From positions 1-36,721 of IMG/VR virus record IMGVR_UViG_3300017605_000293: a stretch of 36,721 nucleotides of DNA. The stretch is one strand, 5' to 3'. Every line of letters begins with the position of its first letter. Position 1 is the stretch's first letter. This document shows, piece after piece, positions 2,816 to 31,890 of this stretch. This DNA comes from a virus. The notes under the pieces are model-generated. The model saw only the letters and a program-made list of their open reading frames with translations, had not been told where the DNA came from and did no database searches. A program made the translations under genes and the position numbers.

Positions 2816-3025
2816 ATGCCGTTTACCCAAACAGACCGCGAGAACCTGGCTCGAGCGATCGCGGAGGGCCGCGGCGCGCGATCGATGACGTTCGACAATC
2901 AAACCGTCGTGTTCAACTCGATCGACGACATGCTCAAGCTACTCGCGCGGATGGACGAGCAGATCGGGATCGCGAACGGAACACGCCGCGGGTACCGCGT
3001 CGCGACGACGCGGAAGGGCGTCTGA
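2816..3025 (+). CDS. Head-tail joining protein, gpW-like
   Basis: This 69-residue protein resembles lambda gpW (68 residues) in length, position and pattern: an N-terminal helix (TQTDRENLARAIAEG), a two-strand segment (RSMTFDNQTVVFNS) and a second helix (IDDMLKLLARMDEQI), followed by a basic tail (RRGYRVATTRKGV). gpW seals the portal channel after packaging. I prefer the ATG at 2816 over the in-frame GTG at 2792 because the latter lies inside the -10-like element and would add eight unrelated residues. The stop overlaps the next ATG (TGATG), so the methyltransferase is translationally coupled. In lambda the portal gene comes next; here a four-gene insert intervenes. Confidence 0.8.
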   Translation: MPFTQTDRENLARAIAEGRGARSMTFDNQTVVFNSIDDMLKLLARMDEQIGIANGTRRGYRVATTRKGV

Positions 3026-3615
3026 TGGCGGAGGCAACCTCCCGCGACGCGTGCATCGATCGACACCGGGCATACACGATCGACATTGCGACGCGCCTCA
3101 ATCCGAAACAGGTCGCGCGCCTCGAGGCGATGCTGGCGCCGGTTCGCGCCGGCGAGGCCGTGCTCGACGCCGGCTGTAACTCCGGATTCGTCGTCGATTT
3201 CCTCCCGCCGACGTGTACCGTCTCCGGCGTCGACGTCGCCGAACACCTCGTCGCGATCGCGCGCGGCCGCCTGGCGCGCGCCGACGTCGCGCCCGTCGAG
3301 GAGCTCCCGTACGCGGATCGTTCCGTCGACATCATCATCTACGGCGAGATCCTCGAGCACGTGTACGATCCCGTCGCCGTGCTCCTCGAGGGGCGGCGCG
3401 TCGCGCGTCGACTCCTGATCGGCTCCGTCCCGAACGAGCAGAGCAAGTGGGGCCCGACGGGCAAACACAAACCGGACGGGCACCCGTACCACGTCCGCGC
3501 GTTCACGGCGCGCACGCTGCAGGCGACACTTCGCCGCGCCGGCCTCCGGCCGATCAGTGTCAGACCGTTCGCGGATTTCTACCTATTCACGGCGGGCGTA
3601 CCGTGCGGGTCGTAA
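3025..3615 (+). CDS. Class I SAM-dependent methyltransferase (type 11-like)
   Basis: This 196-residue protein is predicted to transfer a methyl group from SAM to a small-molecule or sugar acceptor. It shows motif I VLDAGCNSG (residues 46-54), the acidic end of strand 2 at GVDVAE, and the motif IV/post-IV region SVDIIIYGEILEHVYDP. It lacks a DPPY-type tetrad, so it does not look like a DNA amino-methyltransferase; the pattern is that of UbiE/type 11 enzymes common in glycan and lipid pathways. It leads a run of three glycosyltransferases, so O-methylation of a glycan is the simplest guess. The last 13 bases overlap the next gene. The acceptor is unknown. Confidence 0.8.
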   Translation: MAEATSRDACIDRHRAYTIDIATRLNPKQVARLEAMLAPVRAGEAVLDAGCNSGFVVDFLPPTCTVSGVDVAEHLVAIARGRLARADVAPVEELPYADRSVDIIIYGEILEHVYDPVAVLLEGRRVARRLLIGSVPNEQSKWGPTGKHKPDGHPYHVRAFTARTLQATLRRAGLRPISVRPFADFYLFTAGVPCGS

Positions 3616-4235
3616 TTCCATCCGTCGACTACGCCGACATGATCGGCGTTACGCTCCCGGCCTGGCGCGCACTATTCCCCGCGGCGACGATCGTCGTCGT
3701 GACGGCCCGCCACGATCGCGCGTCGCTCGACGTCGCTCGAGCTCGAGGCGCGTCGGTTCTCGTGACGGATGCCTGGTACCGGAAGGGCCGCGCATTCGAC
3801 AAGGCGGCCGCGCTCGACGAGGCGTTTGATTTCCCCGCGCGCGAGCTCGGCGAGCTCTGCATCGCGATCGACGCCGACGTCTACCCGTTCGGCGCGTTCA
3901 ATCTCGAGGCGCTCGCCGTCGGCGTGCTCTACTCCGTCGATCGGTTCTACGTCGACACGCCGGCGACGCTCGCGCGCCAGGTCGCGCGGCCCGACGTCGC
4001 CGCGCTCGATCGCATGACACGCGGCGCCCGCGGCCCGGGATACTTCCAGGCGTTCCGCGCGCGGCCCGATCTGACGTTCGGGAGTTTCCCCGACGCCGGG
4101 TTCTACGATCTCGAGTTCCTTCGGCAGTTCGCCGGCGGCGTCGACGTGCTCCCCGCGTCGTACGTGGTTCACCTCGGACGCAAGAGCGGGAAGAATTGGC
4201 GAGGGCGCACGCTCCCGCGATGGGGCGCCGCGTGA
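3603..4235 (+). CDS. GT-A-type glycosyltransferase
   Basis: This product has 210 residues from the GTG at 3603, which starts RVVIPSVDYADM. The sequence has the features of a GT-A nucleotide-sugar fold: an N-terminal strand, a switch to VVVTARHD and VLVTDAWY strands, and a DxD metal/nucleotide motif in AIDADVYPFG (D90, D92). The C-terminal half contains GYFQAFRA and a late HLGRKSGKNWRGRT segment. The frame is open well upstream, but that part overlaps the methyltransferase and has shadow-like composition. The sugar donor and acceptor cannot be read from the sequence. Its stop overlaps the GTG of the next glycosyltransferase. Confidence 0.7.
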   Translation: MRVVIPSVDYADMIGVTLPAWRALFPAATIVVVTARHDRASLDVARARGASVLVTDAWYRKGRAFDKAAALDEAFDFPARELGELCIAIDADVYPFGAFNLEALAVGVLYSVDRFYVDTPATLARQVARPDVAALDRMTRGARGPGYFQAFRARPDLTFGSFPDAGFYDLEFLRQFAGGVDVLPASYVVHLGRKSGKNWRGRTLPRWGAA

Positions 4236-4990
4236 GCTCGAGGCCGCCGGTTCTCGCCGCGGCGTACTTCGGGAGCGGCAACGCCGGCGATCAGTATTCC
4301 CGCCTGGCGCGCGTGCTCGAGTACACGGCCGGCGTTCACTGTCCCGACTGGACGATCCGCGTCGAGCGCCTGGCGGCGCCGCCGGCGTATACCTCACACC
4401 TCGGCGTCCATTCTCACGTGACGAATTCTCAGAAGCTCGAGTGGTGGCGCTCCGTGATCGTCGACGCGGAGGACGGCGATCGCGTGCTCCTGATCGATGC
4501 CGACATGATGATCACGCGTCCGCTCGAGGCCGCCTGGGCGACGCCGTTCGATCTCGCCTACACGTACCGCGAGGAGGGCCGGCTCCCGCTCAACGGCGGC
4601 GTCGTGTTCGTCCGCGTGTCGCCGGCGTCGCGCCGGTTCGTCGATCGATGGTTCGCGATCAACCAGCTATTTCTCGGCGACGCGATCAAGCACAGGCAAT
4701 GGAGGACGAAGTACGCCGGGATCAATCAGGCCTCGTTCGGCTACATGCTCGAGCGCGAACGCGATCCCGCGCTCACGATCGCGCGGTTCACCTGTCACGA
4801 GTGGAACGCGGAGAACACGGCGTGGGCGAAGTTCGATCCGAACATCACGCGGATCGTTCACCTGAAAAGCGGGCTCCGTCGCGCTCTGTTCGGGATGCCG
4901 GCGCGTCCGGAATTTAAGAAACTGATCGCGCTCTGGCATTCCCTCGAGGCGGAAGCGAACGCGGCCGCGGCCGCCAGGCGGGCCGGATAG
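4232..4990 (+). CDS. GT-A-type glycosyltransferase (GT8-like)
   Basis: This 252-residue protein starts at a GTG that overlaps the previous stop (GTGA); in-frame ATGs at 4196 and 4220 would extend it back into the previous gene. The DxD motif is clear in LLIDADMMITRPL (D89, D91), followed by LPLNGGVVFVRVS, a pattern of GT8-like retaining enzymes in which the Asn-Gly-Gly loop binds the donor sugar. Later segments include NQASFGY and IVHLKSGLR, the latter resembling the metal-binding histidine region near the C-terminus of such enzymes. It ends with an Ala-rich tail. It is the second of three consecutive sugar transferases. Confidence 0.75.
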   Translation: MSSRPPVLAAAYFGSGNAGDQYSRLARVLEYTAGVHCPDWTIRVERLAAPPAYTSHLGVHSHVTNSQKLEWWRSVIVDAEDGDRVLLIDADMMITRPLEAAWATPFDLAYTYREEGRLPLNGGVVFVRVSPASRRFVDRWFAINQLFLGDAIKHRQWRTKYAGINQASFGYMLERERDPALTIARFTCHEWNAENTAWAKFDPNITRIVHLKSGLRRALFGMPARPEFKKLIALWHSLEAEANAAAAARRAG

Positions 4991-5787
4991 TGCGGATCAA
5001 CATCGTCACGAAACCCGGCTGGATCCTCGAGCGCCTGGCGCGCGAGCTCGTCGATCGAGTCGAGGGCGTCACGCTCAACGCCGGCGCAATCGTTCCGGGC
5101 GAACGCGCGATCTCACTCCTGGCTGATTACAACTATTACCTCCCGGCGAAAGACTTCCGGAAGTACCCGACGGGCGGCGCCGCGATCGGTTTCTACACGC
5201 ACGGCGAGAACGCGCTCGATCTGATCCCGCGGTTCTCCGCCTGTATCGCCATGAATCGGACGATGGCCGCGCGCCTCGAGGAGCACGGGGCGGAGAACGT
5301 CTCGATCATTCGGCCCGGCACCGACGCGCCGCCGCGGCCGATCGTGTTCGGCGTGATCGGCCGCACGTACAACGACGGGCGGAAGGGCGAGGAGCTCGTC
5401 GCGCGCGCCGTCGCCGACGGGTTCCGGTTCGTCGCCTGTGGCACCGACGGCGGCCGCCGCGCTCGAGCCATGACGCGCCGGCAATGGCCGTGCTCAACGC
5501 CGTACACGATCGCGACGCGTGACGCGTTCTATGAGGCGATCGACTATCTCGTCGTCACCTCGAGGGAGGAGGGCGGGCCAATGCCGGTACTCGAGGCGAT
5601 CGCGCGCGGCGTTCCCGTGATCGCGCCGAACGTCGGATGGTGTTGGGAGTTTCCGGTTCTTCGGTACGCCGTCGGCGAGTACTCCTCTCTCCGCCAGGTG
5701 CTCGAGCAACTGACGGCGCCGCCGTCCTGGGAACAATGGGGCCAGGCGCACGCGCGCCTGTTCGCCGCTCTCCGAAAGGTCGCCTAG
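4990..5787 (+). CDS. GT-B-type glycosyltransferase (GT4-like)
   Basis: This 265-residue protein begins at a GTG that shares one base with the previous stop. The C-terminal half has the GT4 signature: VVTSREEGGPMPVLEAIARGVPVIAPNVG, with the paired glutamates E194 and E202 of the EX7E motif that holds the nucleotide sugar. The N-terminal domain is short for the family (typical members exceed 350 residues), with IGFYTHGEN and CIAMNRTMAARLEEHG segments typical of the acceptor domain. A basic loop (GRTYNDGRKG) sits where the donor phosphate-binding loop is expected. It ends directly before the portal ATG, so it is transcribed with the head genes. Confidence 0.8.
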   Translation: MRINIVTKPGWILERLARELVDRVEGVTLNAGAIVPGERAISLLADYNYYLPAKDFRKYPTGGAAIGFYTHGENALDLIPRFSACIAMNRTMAARLEEHGAENVSIIRPGTDAPPRPIVFGVIGRTYNDGRKGEELVARAVADGFRFVACGTDGGRRARAMTRRQWPCSTPYTIATRDAFYEAIDYLVVTSREEGGPMPVLEAIARGVPVIAPNVGWCWEFPVLRYAVGEYSSLRQVLEQLTAPPSWEQWGQAHARLFAALRKVA

Positions 5788-25787: not shown

Positions 25788-26639
25788 ATGCTCCCCGCTC
25801 CCTACTACGATCACGACGGGATCACGATCTACCGGGCCGACTGTTTCGAGGTGCTACACGAGCTCGAGGGCGTCGGCGCGTACGTGACGGATGTTCCGTA
25901 CTCGAGCGGCGGCGCGTTCCGCGGCGATCGGATGTTCTCGACGCTCAGCAAGTACGCGAGCTCCGATAGTTCACAGCAAGCCGGGATCGGGTTCACCGGC
26001 GACAATCGGGATCAGCGGGCGTTCGCCGCATGGTGCGCGCTCTGGATGACGGCGGCCCGCGGCGCCGCGGTCGAGGGCGCGACGTTCGCGACGTTCATCG
26101 ACTGGCGGCAACTCCCGACGATCACCGACGCGATCCAGGCCGGCGGATGGGTATGGAGGGGCGTCGGCGTCTGGTCGAAGAAATTCGGCCGGCCGCGCGA
26201 CGGCGGGTTCTCCGGCGCGTGCGAGTTTCTCCCGTGGGCCTCGCACGGCCCGCTCGCGGAAAACGGCGCGTATCCGTCCGGAGGTTTCGAGTACTCGCCG
26301 CCTCCCGTCTCGAGGCGTCATCACCTGGCGGAGAAACCGCTCGCCGTGATGGAGTGGGCAATGGCGAACGTTCCCGCCGGCGCCCTCGTCGTCGATCCGT
26401 TCATGGGCTCCGGCTCGACGCTCGTCGTCGCCAGGCGCCGCGGGCTCCGCGCGATCGGGATCGACGTCGACGAGCGGCAATGTCGGATCGCCGTCGGCCG
26501 ACTCTCACAGGGGATGCTCCCGGGCCTGGCGCTCGAGGCCCTCGAGGAATTCGAGGACGTCGACGCCGGCGAGCTCGAGGCGCCCGCGGTCGAGCTCACT
26601 CCGGACGTCGGCGCGCCGCTCCGGCTCCCGCTGGCGTAG
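25788..26639 (+). CDS. DNA amino-methyltransferase, beta-class order, DVPY motif
   Basis: This 283-residue protein has the layout of N6-adenine/N4-cytosine DNA methyltransferases of the beta class. The catalytic tetrad comes first (TDVPYSSGG, residues 34-42), then HHLAEKPLAVMEW, and the SAM-binding motif I near the C-terminus (VVDPFMGSGSTLVVARRRGLRAIGIDVDE, D203 to about E229). The tetrad reads DVPY instead of the usual DPPY; the catalytic Asp and stacking Tyr remain. A long acidic tail follows the domain. There is no partner endonuclease, so it is an orphan enzyme that probably shields phage DNA or marks it for other modification. Translation may be leaderless. Confidence 0.85.
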   Translation: MLPAPYYDHDGITIYRADCFEVLHELEGVGAYVTDVPYSSGGAFRGDRMFSTLSKYASSDSSQQAGIGFTGDNRDQRAFAAWCALWMTAARGAAVEGATFATFIDWRQLPTITDAIQAGGWVWRGVGVWSKKFGRPRDGGFSGACEFLPWASHGPLAENGAYPSGGFEYSPPPVSRRHHLAEKPLAVMEWAMANVPAGALVVDPFMGSGSTLVVARRRGLRAIGIDVDERQCRIAVGRLSQGMLPGLALEALEEFEDVDAGELEAPAVELTPDVGAPLRLPLA

Positions 26640-26663: not shown

Positions 26664-27029
26664 ATGAAATTCGATCTACACGCGTTTCTCTCCGTGGTTC
26701 GCCAGGTCGGGCCGATCATCCTCGCCGCGACGCCGGCCGGCCACAAGATCCCGCCGGATCTCGTTCCGAAGATCGTCGACGCAATCGGCGAGGCGCAGGC
26801 GATCAAGGGCGCGACCGGCGAGGAGAAGAAGGCGCACGTGCTCAACGTGCTCGGAACGGCCGTCGACGTCGCGAACACGACAGGGAAGGTCAAGCTCGAC
26901 GCCGACGAGATCAAAGGCGTCGCGAGCGCCGGGATCGATAACGTCGTCGCGACCGTCAAGATCATCCAGGGATCGAAGGTCGCGGTCGACGCGCCGGCCG
27001 CGGCGCATCCGCCGGCCGCCGGCGACTGA
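26664..27029 (+). CDS. Hypothetical 121-residue helical protein
   Basis: The product is Ala/Val/Ile-rich: LHAFLSVVRQVGPIILAATPAGHKIP, then PKIVDAIGEAQAIKGATGEEKKAHVLNVLGTAVDVANTTGKVKLD, and ADEIKGVASAGIDNVVATVKIIQG, with a Pro/Ala tail. The GATGEEKKAHV segment is one I associate with small phage proteins of unknown role that have been compared with the soluble part of LL-H-type holins; this link is weak. The hydrophobic N-terminal stretch is moderate and not a clear membrane span. The ribosome binding site GGAGGT nine bases before the ATG is one of the best in the window. Confidence 0.5.
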   Translation: MKFDLHAFLSVVRQVGPIILAATPAGHKIPPDLVPKIVDAIGEAQAIKGATGEEKKAHVLNVLGTAVDVANTTGKVKLDADEIKGVASAGIDNVVATVKIIQGSKVAVDAPAAAHPPAAGD

Positions 27030-27189: not shown

Positions 27190-27218
27190 TTGACACGTGT
27201 TCGCGGATTTGCTAATCT
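27190..27218 (+). promoter_or_regulatory. Strong sigma70-type promoter P1
   Basis: TTGACA, a 17-base spacer and TAATCT give a near-consensus promoter that stands out sharply from the GC-rich background. Transcription should begin about 27225 and give a leader of roughly 45 bases with a small hairpin (CGGC pairing with GCCG around 27230-27250) before the GAAAGG ribosome binding site. Eleven of 17 spacer bases are shared with the promoter at 28552. Confidence 0.85.
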
Positions 27219-27268: not shown

Positions 27269-27457
27269 GTGAACGACGCCGCCCTCGCCGCCTTCCGCCA
27301 GATTTTCGACGCGACGCAGACCGCGCCGCAGGACTGGCAATGGATCGGGCCGCATATGTCGCAGCGGATGTTCGGGATCACGCGCGAGCGCGCGGAGGCG
27401 TTCGCGGCCCGGCACGGCGGCGAGGCCCGCGAGATGACGAAGGACGGCGGCCGCTAA
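27269..27457 (+). CDS. Small protein leading the Mom operon
   Basis: This 62-residue product begins at a GTG that follows GAAAGGCAGACACC, a ribosome binding site of the same style as those at 29859 and 32009. The sequence is helical, with aromatic residues (LAAFRQIFDATQTAPQDWQWIGPHMSQRMFGITRERAEAFAARHGG). RMFGITRERAEAFAARHGG looks like a helix-turn-helix-like pair, but this is uncertain. It overlaps the next ATG (TAATG). As the first gene after promoter P1 it may be a regulatory or Com-like companion to the downstream modification gene, though it has no zinc finger. Confidence 0.55.
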   Translation: MNDAALAAFRQIFDATQTAPQDWQWIGPHMSQRMFGITRERAEAFAARHGGEAREMTKDGGR

Positions 27458-27723
27458 TGGCCGCCCTCCTCCTCCCCGTGATCGCGCGGCTCGTCGGCCG
27501 ATGCGCGAACGGCGCCGAACGCGCCGGCGGGATCCGCTCTCACGTGATCATGGCGGAGGGCCTCGGCCTCTCGTCGCCGTGTTACGCGACGGCGATCTGT
27601 GGCGCGAAACCCGGCCGGCTCTCGAATGGATGGGAGGAGCTCGACGGCGCCGAACGGCCGACGTGTTCCCGATGCGATCGGATCGCGGCGCGCCAGGGGC
27701 GCGAGCTCGAGGCCGCGCGATGA
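27457..27723 (+). CDS. Zinc-finger-like 88-residue protein
   Basis: This small protein has a C-terminal CxxC pair (PTCSRC) and an upstream cysteine pair (CYATAICGAKPG), a four-cysteine arrangement that fits a zinc ribbon. The spacing HVIM..CYATAICGAKPGRLSNGWEEL..PTCSRC resembles many small phage proteins of unknown role. Phage Mu mom is activated in translation by the zinc-finger protein Com, encoded just upstream and overlapping mom; here a zinc-ribbon protein also overlaps the Mom-like gene by four bases. The parallel is suggestive but I see no sequence identity to Com. Confidence 0.6.
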   Translation: MAALLLPVIARLVGRCANGAERAGGIRSHVIMAEGLGLSSPCYATAICGAKPGRLSNGWEELDGAERPTCSRCDRIAARQGRELEAAR

Positions 27724-28520
27724 CGCCGACGGTTCAACGCTGGCGCGAGCGCCGGGCCTCGTATCGGCCCGCCGGCGAGACGATCAACCCGCGCGAGTAC
27801 GAGGTCGCGCCGATCGAGTCGGACACGATCGCGAAGGGGTTCGTCCTGGCGCATCACTACGCCGGCACGTATCCGGCCGCGCGGGTCCGCGTCGGACTCT
27901 ACCGCGGCGGCGAGCTCGCCGGCGTCGCCGTGTTCTCGCATCCGTGCAACGATGCCGTCTTGACGAACGTATTCGAGGCGCCGGCGCTCGAGACGATCGA
28001 GCTCGGTCGATTCGTGCTCCTCGACGACGTTCGCGGGAACGGCGAGACGTGGTTTCTCGCGCGATGTTTCGAGGAGCTCCGCGGCCGCGGGTTCCGCGGC
28101 GTCGTCTCGTTCAGCGATCCGATCGCGCGCGTCGACGGCGCCGGCCGCCGCGTGTTCCCCGGGCACCTCGGAACGATCTACCAGGCGCACAACGGCCGGT
28201 ACTTGGGCCGCTCGTCGGCGATCTCTATGCTCCTCCTCGCGAACGGCCAGGTGCTCAGCAAACGGGCGATCTCGAAAATTCGCGCCGGCGAGCGCGGCTG
28301 GCACTACGCCGCGGCGCTCCTCGAGGCCGCAGGCGCGACGCCGGCGCCGCTCGAGGGCGAGGCCCGGGCCGCCTGGCTGGCCGCCTGGCTCCCGCGCGTG
28401 ACGCGTCCTGTGAGGCATCCTGGCAACCATCGGTACGCCTGGCCGCTCGAGCGCCGCACGCGGATCCTCCTCGAGTCGCTCCCGTATCCGAAGCTCGCCG
28501 CGGCGCCGGCGGCCGCCTGA
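27720..28520 (+). CDS. mom: Mom-family DNA modification protein (adenine carbamoylmethylation)
   Basis: This 266-residue protein matches the phage Mu Mom family, GNAT-fold enzymes that convert adenine in DNA to N6-carbamoylmethyl-adenine and so block many restriction enzymes. Key parts are AKGFVLAHHYAGTYPAARVRVGLYRGGELAGVAVFSHP, a helix-strand unit ELGRFVLLDDVRGNGETWFLARCFEEL, GVVSFSDP (residues 128-134), and the signature GHLGTIYQAHNGRYLGRSS (148-166). It is longer than Mu Mom (about 230 residues) by a C-terminal arginine-rich segment. Its ATG overlaps the zinc-ribbon gene stop. Expression from the strong promoter P1 without obvious methylation control would differ from the tight Dam/OxyR control in Mu. 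Confidence 0.75.
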   Translation: MTPTVQRWRERRASYRPAGETINPREYEVAPIESDTIAKGFVLAHHYAGTYPAARVRVGLYRGGELAGVAVFSHPCNDAVLTNVFEAPALETIELGRFVLLDDVRGNGETWFLARCFEELRGRGFRGVVSFSDPIARVDGAGRRVFPGHLGTIYQAHNGRYLGRSSAISMLLLANGQVLSKRAISKIRAGERGWHYAAALLEAAGATPAPLEGEARAAWLAAWLPRVTRPVRHPGNHRYAWPLERRTRILLESLPYPKLAAAPAAA

Positions 28521-28551: not shown

Positions 28552-28580
28552 TTGACATGCGTTCGCTAATCCGCTAATAT
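28552..28580 (+). promoter_or_regulatory. Strong sigma70-type promoter P2, leaderless
   Basis: TTGACA, a 17-base spacer and TAATAT form an almost perfect promoter. Only seven bases (CTCTCTC) separate the -10 from the ATG at 28588, so transcription should begin at or within a base or two of the start codon and no ribosome binding site can exist. The sequence CGCTAAT occurs twice, once in the spacer and once entering the -10, a possible operator. Confidence 0.85.
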
Positions 28581-28587
28581 CTCTCTC

Positions 28588-28848
28588 ATGACGACGCGCG
28601 AGACGCTCCAGGCCGAATTCGACGCCGCCGACGCGGCCGTCGCGATCGCGGCCCGCAATCACCGCAACGCCGAAACCCGTCGCCGCCAGAACCCGGCCGG
28701 CTACCTCGCCGCCGGCGTCGAGCTCGAGGCCGCCGGCGCGCGCCTCGAGGCCGCGGAGGCCGCGCTCGTCGCCGCCCTCGAGCTCGAGGCGGCCGCCGCG
28801 GCCGCGGCCCTCGAGGCGCCCGATTTCGTCAACCTGTCACTGTTCTAG
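28588..28848 (+). CDS. Small coiled-coil protein made from a leaderless transcript
   Basis: This 86-residue protein is almost wholly helical and very rich in Ala and Glu (TLQAEFDAADAAVAIAARNHRNAETRRRQ; ELEAAGARLEAAEAALVAALELEAAAAAAAL), ending APDFVNLSLF. The heptad-like pattern predicts a coiled coil. No family is recognised. It is the first gene behind the strongest promoter in the window and has no ribosome binding site of its own. The HTH gene follows after 15 bases. Low-complexity composition means part of the predicted structure could simply reflect GC-rich codon choice. Confidence 0.6.
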   Translation: MTTRETLQAEFDAADAAVAIAARNHRNAETRRRQNPAGYLAAGVELEAAGARLEAAEAALVAALELEAAAAAAALEAPDFVNLSLF

Positions 28849-28863
28849 GAGAAGGGGCAAACC

Positions 28864-29049
28864 ATGAAGGAGATCGATCCGCTCGACGCGCTCAAGCGAT
28901 TCGTCGCGAAACACAAAACGCAGGCGGCGGCCGCGGAGGCGCTCGGAGTGTCGCGGCCGTACCTGTCCGACATCATCAACGGCCGGCGCGATTTCTCCGA
29001 TCCCGTGCTCGAGCGCCTGGGCCTCCGTCGTGTCGTCGTCGCCGCGTAG
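28864..29049 (+). CDS. Cro/C1-type HTH regulator
   Basis: This is a 61-residue DNA-binding protein with a classical lambda-repressor-type HTH: LKRFVAKHKTQAAAAEALGVSRPYLSDIINGRRDFSDPVLERLGLRR, where TQAAAAEALGVSRPYLSDII spans helices 2 and 3. It has no dimerisation domain, like Cro-type or YdaS-type proteins. The ribosome binding site (AGGAGAAGGGG) is strong. Being second in the P2 transcript, it may repress P1 and P2, whose spacers are similar; this is inference. No divergent CI-type repressor gene is seen nearby. Confidence 0.8.
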   Translation: MKEIDPLDALKRFVAKHKTQAAAAEALGVSRPYLSDIINGRRDFSDPVLERLGLRRVVVAA

Positions 29050-30903: not shown

Positions 30904-31046
30904 TCGTGTGGCTCGCCGGCGGGTTCGCGCTCGCCGGCGGGTTCCTTGTCATTCGTACGATCGTACGCCGGCGCCGCGGCGGGCTCGAGCGCCGGCGCCT
31001 CGCCGGCCTGGGCACCGTCGACGAACATCGGGAGCGGTACCGATGA
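30891..31046 (+). CDS. 51-residue single-span membrane protein
   Basis: The N-terminal membrane span (LIVWLAGGFALAGGFLVIRTIV) is followed by a strongly basic stop-transfer sequence (RRRRGGLERRRLAG) and a short charged tail. That charge pattern places the C-terminus in the cytoplasm. Function is unknown. Confidence 0.5.
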   Translation: MVTLIVWLAGGFALAGGFLVIRTIVRRRRGGLERRRLAGLGTVDEHRERYR

Positions 31047-31300
31047 CGCGCCGGCTCTGTCCGTCGCCGTGCGGTTCCTACACCGTGCGGATCGAGAACG
31101 ATCGGATCGTCGTCAACTGTGCCATGTGCGGCGACTCCGGCAAGTACGCGCCCGCCGGCGCGCGGCGCCTGGCCGCGGAGCTCGAGGGCCCGCTCGGCCG
31201 ATTTCAGACGACGGCGCCGCGGCCCGAACGGCTCCGCCTGGCGAAGCTCCTCCGCGCGTCCGCGCTCGAGCTCGAGGCGAAACGCGGGAGGCGACGATGA
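31043..31300 (+). CDS. Zinc-ribbon-like 85-residue protein
   Basis: Four cysteines in two groups (LCPSPC and CAMC), with a beta-hairpin between them (YTVRIENDRIVVN), make a likely zinc ribbon. A C-terminal helix follows (RLAKLLRASALELEAKRGRRR). It is directly coupled to the Dam-type methyltransferase gene by a four-base overlap. It may be a nucleic-acid-binding adaptor. Confidence 0.6.
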   Translation: MTRRLCPSPCGSYTVRIENDRIVVNCAMCGDSGKYAPAGARRLAAELEGPLGRFQTTAPRPERLRLAKLLRASALELEAKRGRRR

Positions 31301-31890
31301 CGCGCACGGCCGCGCGCCATTCGTGCGACTCGCCGGAATGGTTCACGCCGCTCGAGTACGTCGAGGCCGCGCGCGAGGTGCTCGGCTCGATCACGCTCGA
31401 TCCGGCGTCGCATCCGGAGGCGAACCGGATCGTTCGCGCGCGTCGGATTTTCACGGAGAAGCAGAACGGGCTCCGGCGATCCTGGGGCCGACGTCAACGC
31501 GTCCTGCTCAACCCGCCAGGCGGGAACGTTCCGGCGTTCTGGCATCGGCTGATCTACGCCTGGCGCGCCGGCGAGCTCGAGGCCGCGATCTGGATCGGCT
31601 ATTCGCTCGAGCAGCTTCAAACGCTGCAAGGGTACGACGTGCCGAACCCGCTCGCGTTCCCGATCTGTATTCCCTCGAGGCGGATCGCGTTCGTCGAGAG
31701 CACGGCGAAACGGGCCGCCAGGTTCAAGGCGATCGACGAGGAGAACCGCGTCCGCCGGCGCGAGGGCCTCGAGCTCCGGCCGCGGAAGGACGCCGCGCAA
31801 CCGTCGCACGCGAATTACATCACGTACATAGGGCGCGCGCCGGCCAGGTTCGCGCGGGTATTCGGCGCGTTCGGCGACGTGCGACGATGA
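31297..31890 (+). CDS. Phage Dam-type N6-adenine methyltransferase with NPPG motif
   Basis: This 197-residue protein matches the short phage Dam family: DSPEWFTPLEYVEAAREVLGSITLDPASHPEANRIVRARRIFTE, where the EWFTP and LDPAS elements are diagnostic, then the catalytic region VLLNPPGGNVPAFW (N72-G75) and a later QPSHANYITYIG strand. The usual fourth residue of the tetrad is aromatic (NPPY or DPPY); here it is glycine. The aromatic ring normally stacks on the flipped base, so activity may be weak or altered. With Mom and the beta-class enzyme this is the third DNA-modification candidate. The target sequence is unknown, though GATC is very common in this genome. Confidence 0.8.
   Translation: MTRTAARHSCDSPEWFTPLEYVEAAREVLGSITLDPASHPEANRIVRARRIFTEKQNGLRRSWGRRQRVLLNPPGGNVPAFWHRLIYAWRAGELEAAIWIGYSLEQLQTLQGYDVPNPLAFPICIPSRRIAFVESTAKRAARFKAIDEENRVRRREGLELRPRKDAAQPSHANYITYIGRAPARFARVFGAFGDVRR

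Follow-up and report, generated by a model that had tools for sequence, protein, structure and literature searches.

Introduction

The closest described counterpart of the locus analyzed here is the com-mom operon of phage Mu, in which the gene for the Mom enzyme (Mup55; PDB 8bv8; Pfam PF25680) is the downstream member of an overlapping pair; its overlap with com (PF10122) measures 50 or 80 bases, according to which start is chosen. According to PMC4461284, the Mu mom promoter has non-consensus elements and needs the C protein, and PMC6483171 places the action of Com at a hairpin before the mom start. Expression of Mu Mom is described as toxic in PMC4461284 and PMC12707154, which is the reason given for its tight restraint. 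Two other descriptions bear on the arrangement. P2-like phages and P4-like satellites possess antiviral hotspots, where variable accessory genes occupy a fixed place in related phages (PMC9122126). Of 14 overlapping gene pairs tested in other organisms, 13 were reported to be strictly coupled, with ATGA pairs coupled by termination-reinitiation (PMC6728339).

The window, meaning the whole stretch of DNA analyzed, is a complete IMG/VR virus record of 36,721 bases. It contains a mom gene that closes a group of three between two promoter-like copies, in the order P1 (27190), 62-aa gene, 88-aa zinc-ribbon-like gene, mom, P2 (28552), 86-aa gene, and 61-aa helix-turn-helix (HTH) gene (Table 1). As in com-mom, a small ORF of predicted zinc-binding type directly precedes and overlaps mom. 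The overlap is only four bases, however, and the ORF shows no homology to Com and is not kept together with mom elsewhere. P1, judged from its sequence alone, is near consensus (TTGACA, 17 bases, TAATCT), in contrast to the Mu promoter, which is reported to depend on C (PMC4461284). The locus also recalls the P2/P4 hotspots in that related phages hold different genes at this place; unlike the hotspots as presented in PMC9122126, it is framed by two promoter-like copies, and mom is its only recognizable anti-restriction cargo.

Table 1. Features of the mom slot and its flanks (window coordinates)
Feature	Position	Strand	Basis or remarks
N4/N6 DNA methyltransferase, left of slot	25788..26639	+	Pfam/PHROG scans; matches in L092 (part of the L007 contig) and L097
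121-aa gene, left flank of slot, conserved	26664..27029	+	
P1, promoter-like TTGACA-17-TAATCT, 5′ of the 62-aa gene	27190..27218	+	pattern scan
62-aa gene, GTG start, first in slot	27269..27457	+	relatives 84% in L007, 80% in L097
88-aa zinc-ribbon-like gene, best start ATG 27457	27457..27723	+	22 relatives
ATGA stop/start overlap, zinc-ribbon-like gene to mom	27720..27723	+	
mom, predicted Mom-family GNAT-fold DNA-modification enzyme, 266 aa	27720..28520	+	ATG 27720, stop 28520
P2, second promoter-like copy, directly 3′ of mom	28552..28580	+	
86-aa gene, right flank of slot, conserved	28588..28848	+	
61-aa helix-turn-helix protein (HTH_3), right flank, conserved	28864..29049	+	Pfam

The 62-aa and 88-aa ORFs are joined by one base (27457). 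The 62-aa protein has no Pfam match above the cut-off and no PHROG match of note. Elsewhere in the window, two genes, one for a SAM methyltransferase and one glycosyltransferase-like (3025-5787), are located between the terminase and portal genes.

The Mom enzyme

Family models, conserved residues, and predicted fold all agree with the earlier note, which had assigned 27720-28520 to the Mom family. Sequence and structural model together mark the protein as a genuine, ordinary member. It scores 82.7 bits against Pfam Mom PF25680 (cut-off 27.1, E = 3.6e-23), with residues 27-258 placed on profile positions 2-202, and matches the PHROG Mom family phrog_1384 at 2.6e-27. The segments by which it had been recognized, GHLGTIYQAHNGRYLGRSS and FSDP, are residues 148-166 and 131-134. 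In the scans, virus contigs yielded 37 relatives and genomes 17, and a profile of 41 aligned Moms (A2) has Mu Mom 8bv8 as its sole match in the PDB (E = 2.5e-13). H46, Y47, R97, D133, and Y154 show no variation across the 41 relatives or across a set of 10 diverse Moms to which that of Mu belongs; position 110 is Thr or Ser throughout the same two sets (41/41 and 10/10). Read by hand from the alignment, T110 is equivalent to S124 of Mu Mom, a site that matters in Mu because 8bv8 is titled as the inactive mutant S124A.

The AlphaFold2 model (pLDDT 93.2) has 8bv8 as its top structural match (Foldseek 5.6e-12; Z = 18.5, rmsd 2.5, 176 residues aligned), and the next GNAT follows about 7 Z units lower, at Z = 11.7. 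The GNAT fold is common, and the protein might be a GNAT acyltransferase of another function, acylating proteins or small molecules, that is Mom by resemblance only. Significant matches to generic GNATs (Z about 11) and the annotation of some Mom relatives as plain "acetyltransferase" speak for such an assignment. The Mu enzyme nevertheless tops the profile, Foldseek, and Z rankings, so that the better match to an unrelated GNAT contemplated in the earlier note is not what the comparison returned, and every position held in common with Mu Mom is present. In seven related loci, furthermore, the gene before mom is part of a cluster with a C5 cytosine methyltransferase among its members, which is a DNA-modification context. 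We regard a different GNAT function as extremely unlikely.

The window and Mu enzymes thus have family, fold, and invariant residues in common, and each is encoded downstream in an overlapping gene pair. They are only 25% identical. The window protein has a QRW..R..SYRPAGE stretch at its N terminus, and an insert separates D133 from G148; Mu lacks both. The gene preceding mom is unrelated to com. By analogy with Mu, the protein would carry out Mom catalysis and yield the same modified adenine, N6-carbamoylmethyl-adenine.

The 88-aa gene and the question of a Com analogue

The four-base overlap of a zinc-ribbon-like ORF with mom is present as described in the earlier note (ATGA, 27720-27723). 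The accompanying suggestion of a Com analogue is not supported; neither homology, nor co-occurrence, nor CxxC enrichment backs it, and in the nearest syntenic phage other genes take the middle positions.

The 88-aa ORF is a member of a genuine gene family, with 22 relatives and a dN of 0.32 vs a dS of 0.93 against the closest. The relatives were collected with a two-sequence alignment that included an ORF of Stenotrophomonas phage S1; a scan with the single protein gave none. In S1 the relative is an unannotated ORF (L044:3310-3573; NC_011589.1, about 36715-36978), over which gp40 and gp41 are annotated in NC_011589.1, both on the other strand. Over 20 aligned members, the invariant residues are G14, R15, G19, G25, H29, C48, G53, G58, W59, C70, and C73, of which H29, C48, C70, and C73 make a plausible zinc site. 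The ORF has no Pfam, PHROG, or NCBIfam match, and its structural model (pLDDT 79) has no PDB match with E of 0.001 or Z of 2; the absence of a nameable fold is no evidence of a new one.

Homology to Com was considered and rejected. The Com model (PF10122) gives no match to the 88-aa ORF even with E allowed to reach 1 (2.7e-9 for the Mu Com control), and the alignments from BLASTP and profile comparisons with Mu Com were confined to a short segment with CxxC (6 and 12 positions; hhalign probability 19%). The same model finds Com in Mu and in none of 36 mom-bearing virus records, comprising 35 of the 37 virus-contig loci and the window. Co-occurrence gives a similar picture: mom is absent from all 22 records with a relative of the 88-aa gene, no such relative is found in the 54 mom loci, and when the proteins called in 119 loci (116 of them having a mom match) were searched with an HMM, the family turned up in the window only. 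The relatives often overlap their next gene by ATGA, and that next gene varies among phages.

What precedes mom elsewhere was assessed by a junction census with our own gene caller, in which the gene before mom was compared with all other same-strand junctions of the same loci. A CxxC gene precedes mom in 10/54 cases vs 90/647 controls (p = 0.32). The proportions do not differ after the window and its near-copies are removed (8/49 vs 87/595; L050, L053, L036, L029, and the window left out), nor is CxxC commoner at mom in a larger set (18/112 vs 212/1099). The larger census omits L050, L053, L036, L028, and 16 loci on contigs already in the set, and has four moms with no same-strand upstream neighbor. 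A post hoc subset of small overlapping genes appeared enriched in CxxC (9/22 vs 36/207), an effect that disappeared when the window and its near-copies were taken out (7/20 vs 35/198, p = 0.075). The corresponding values in the larger set are 10/56 at mom vs 77/359 for controls (p = 0.60), or 11/57 at mom if the 94-aa GTG ORF before mom in L007, which the gene caller missed and counted as a gap, is added by hand.

The ATGA junction occurs at mom in 22/54 loci vs 203/647 controls in the first census (p = 0.17), and in the larger set it is commoner before related loci are collapsed (55/112 vs 330/1099; p = 0.000 to three decimals), which counts against the reading preferred here. Grouping the Moms at 70% identity gives 34/71 vs 245/728 (p = 0.019), and joining loci with related upstream genes as well gives 26/63 vs 215/659 (p = 0.17). 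With related loci collapsed, ATGA is a generic junction. There are 16 such junctions in the window itself. Its Dam-like adenine methyltransferase gene (31297-31890, Pfam Dam just above the cut-off) is overlapped by ATGA with a Cys-rich 85-aa ORF (31043-31300), another sign that these pairs are routine in this phage.

The census also uncovered recurrent neighbors of other kinds. At 7 of the 112 mom loci (L016, L020, L027, L038, L117, L129, L135), the preceding genes fall into one cluster and are listed as overlapping mom by ATGA; the L016 member, the sole one run against Pfam, is a C5 cytosine methyltransferase. At 21 distant loci (L130, L153-L155, L157-L162, L165, L167-L170, L172-L177), mom is immediately preceded by a related small gene, which overlaps it by ATGA in at least five of them; by eye this gene resembles a DNA-binding protein (HNH or HTH-like).

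The proposal that the 88-aa protein is a non-homologous Com analogue, binding zinc and RNA, opening the mom start, and so switching on translation, draws on the ATGA overlap and on an invariant His/Cys set typical of a zinc site. It also draws on two neighboring cases, as the gene before mom in L007 is zinc-ribbon-like too (Zn_ribbon_IS1595, E = 0.0016, below the cut-off) and a CxxC gene precedes mom in L008. The three closest moms (window, L007, and L008; at least 83% identical) are thus each overlapped by a small CxxC gene through ATGA, as diverse Com analogues would show. This trio was noticed after the fact and could be due to chance, since roughly one small overlapping control gene in five also has CxxC; the genes of the window and L007, the pair compared, are dissimilar. 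Against the proposal, relatives of the 88-aa gene reside in 22 phage records that have no mom, where ATGA often joins them to other genes; CxxC is no more frequent in the small overlapping genes that precede mom than in controls; and the zinc-ribbon gene of L097 ends its slot with no mom at all. RNA folding adds little: burial of the mom start is unexceptional (rank 9 of 51, and 6 of 16 among the ATGA junctions), in what is a weak test, uninformative on a hidden start because the known controlled GTG start of Mu is not singled out either (7 of 37). We consider the Com-analogue proposal very unlikely. Judging from its family, the 88-aa protein is most likely an independent small phage protein, unrelated to Com and adjacent to mom by chance.

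Twin promoters and the variable slot

The earlier note had described a strong, constitutive-looking mom promoter with no obvious Dam-dependent control. The hexamers are indeed near consensus. P1 is found about 500 bp upstream of mom, outside the 27720-28520 interval then considered; it directly precedes the 62-aa gene and hence belongs to this gene and its followers, as a promoter of the operon rather than of mom. It also has a second copy, P2, and the conserved spacer of the pair points to a shared regulator rather than to constitutive expression. The exact TTGACA-17-TAATCT pattern occurs twice in the window vs no control matches, and an extended 29-base pattern has two matches vs a mean of 0.00 in 100 shuffles. 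We note that only seven bases separate the −10 element of P2 from the start codon of the 86-aa gene, whose transcript may therefore be almost without a leader; in L093, the 80-aa gene follows P1 at a similarly short distance.

As to Dam, three GATC sites do lie shortly upstream of the −35 element of P1 (27136, 27149, 27178), and at least three are also present in 8.5% of the 60-base stretches of this genome. GATC is so dense in the window (694 sites, 18.9 per kb) that these three carry no weight either way; as a sign of Dam control of P1 they are indistinguishable from background. The density is 6.5 times the base-composition expectation and only 1.2 times the Markov expectation; relatives (L007, L093, L097) have 17 to 19 sites per kb, Mu 2.1.

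A promoter scan over viral contigs identified four other records, each with two copies around a gene slot. The records may be fragments, with complete slots. In all four the flanks are kept, with a homologue of the gene at 26664 on the left and of those at 28588 and 28864 on the right, while the contents vary. L007, the closest phage by synteny, has P1, the first gene, and mom (92%) in common with the window, and its middle genes are unrelated to those of the window; its slot consists of a 64-aa gene (84% to the window 62-aa gene), then one of 152 aa, a 94-aa zinc-ribbon-like gene, and mom. In the L097 slot, a 60-aa relative of the window 62-aa gene is accompanied by genes of 73 and 71 aa, the latter a zinc-ribbon gene, and the L093 and L094/L096 slots have an 80-aa gene, a 153-aa gene, and a further uncertain ORF. 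A Mom profile search over the whole records located mom in L007 only, leaving three slots with no mom. The records are related and the slot ends of L093 and L094/L096 are identical in the stretches compared, so the variation amounts to about four independent states. The N4/N6 methyltransferase left of the slot has no match within the stretches of L093 and L094 analyzed.

Between P1 and P2 of the same record, 11 to 17 of the 17 spacer bases match, vs 11 to 21 of 60 in the upstream flanks. The spacers are identical in L007 and L097 (17/17). Such conservation beyond the hexamers suggests a shared regulator or operator, or repeated conversion, and together with the neighboring HTH gene it argues for control rather than constitutive expression. 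The 61-aa HTH protein would be the candidate regulator of P1 and P2. P1 and P2 might instead be plain vegetative promoters with no regulator in common, their spacers alike through duplication or gene conversion and the slot enlarged by chance gain; the identical spacers of L007 and L097 are what a recent event of this kind would leave. The copies in the window and in L093 have diverged, yet their spacers match far above their flanks (11/17 vs 17/60 and 14/17 vs 11/60, respectively), and both copies are retained in all four other records. This reading is doubtful, although it deserves more weight than the alternatives raised above for the enzyme and for the 88-aa protein. On the sequence evidence, mom is best read as counter-restriction cargo in an exchangeable twin-promoter slot. 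The slot is the modestly new part of the locus, and the Mom enzyme is ordinary.

Proposed mechanism and implications

We think it probable that the locus encodes a Mom enzyme shielding the phage DNA, translated by re-initiation as the last product of a three-gene operon driven by P1, with the 88-aa protein independent and the P1/P2 slot variable. P1 would transcribe the 62-aa gene, the 88-aa gene, and mom as one operon. Ribosomes ending the 88-aa gene would then re-initiate at the overlapping ATGA of mom, aided by a GAGG seven bases upstream of the mom start, and no dedicated activator would be needed. The four-base stop/start junction is identical to that of the ATGA pairs treated in PMC6728339, and we infer coupling here from this likeness. 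Mom would modify phage adenines and so provide a shield against host restriction, its expression standing outside the Com and C-protein control of Mu. The operon would fill the variable slot between P1 and P2, which in related phages bears other genes, with or without mom.

A more ambitious reading is that a small phage lineage uses a dedicated twin-promoter/operator slot for exchanging counter-restriction cargo, and that its own HTH protein, acting on the spacer, sets the timing of Mom, unlike the late C/Com/Dam scheme of Mu. We offer this tentatively, as a possibility on the unlikely side. The open literature covered by our search holds no description of the slot or of the Mom relative of this lineage; the main papers on Mom chemistry lie outside that coverage, and we do not claim absence from print.

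For the Mom family, these results ground the Mom call firmly in a high-GC phage lineage and remove the tempting parallel with Mu Com as unsupported. A near-consensus promoter pair and a mom that is sometimes replaced offer a simple natural setting in which to ask how phages can afford this enzyme in the absence of Com. The twin-promoter slot, moreover, marks where further nameless cargo genes of the lineage may be sought.
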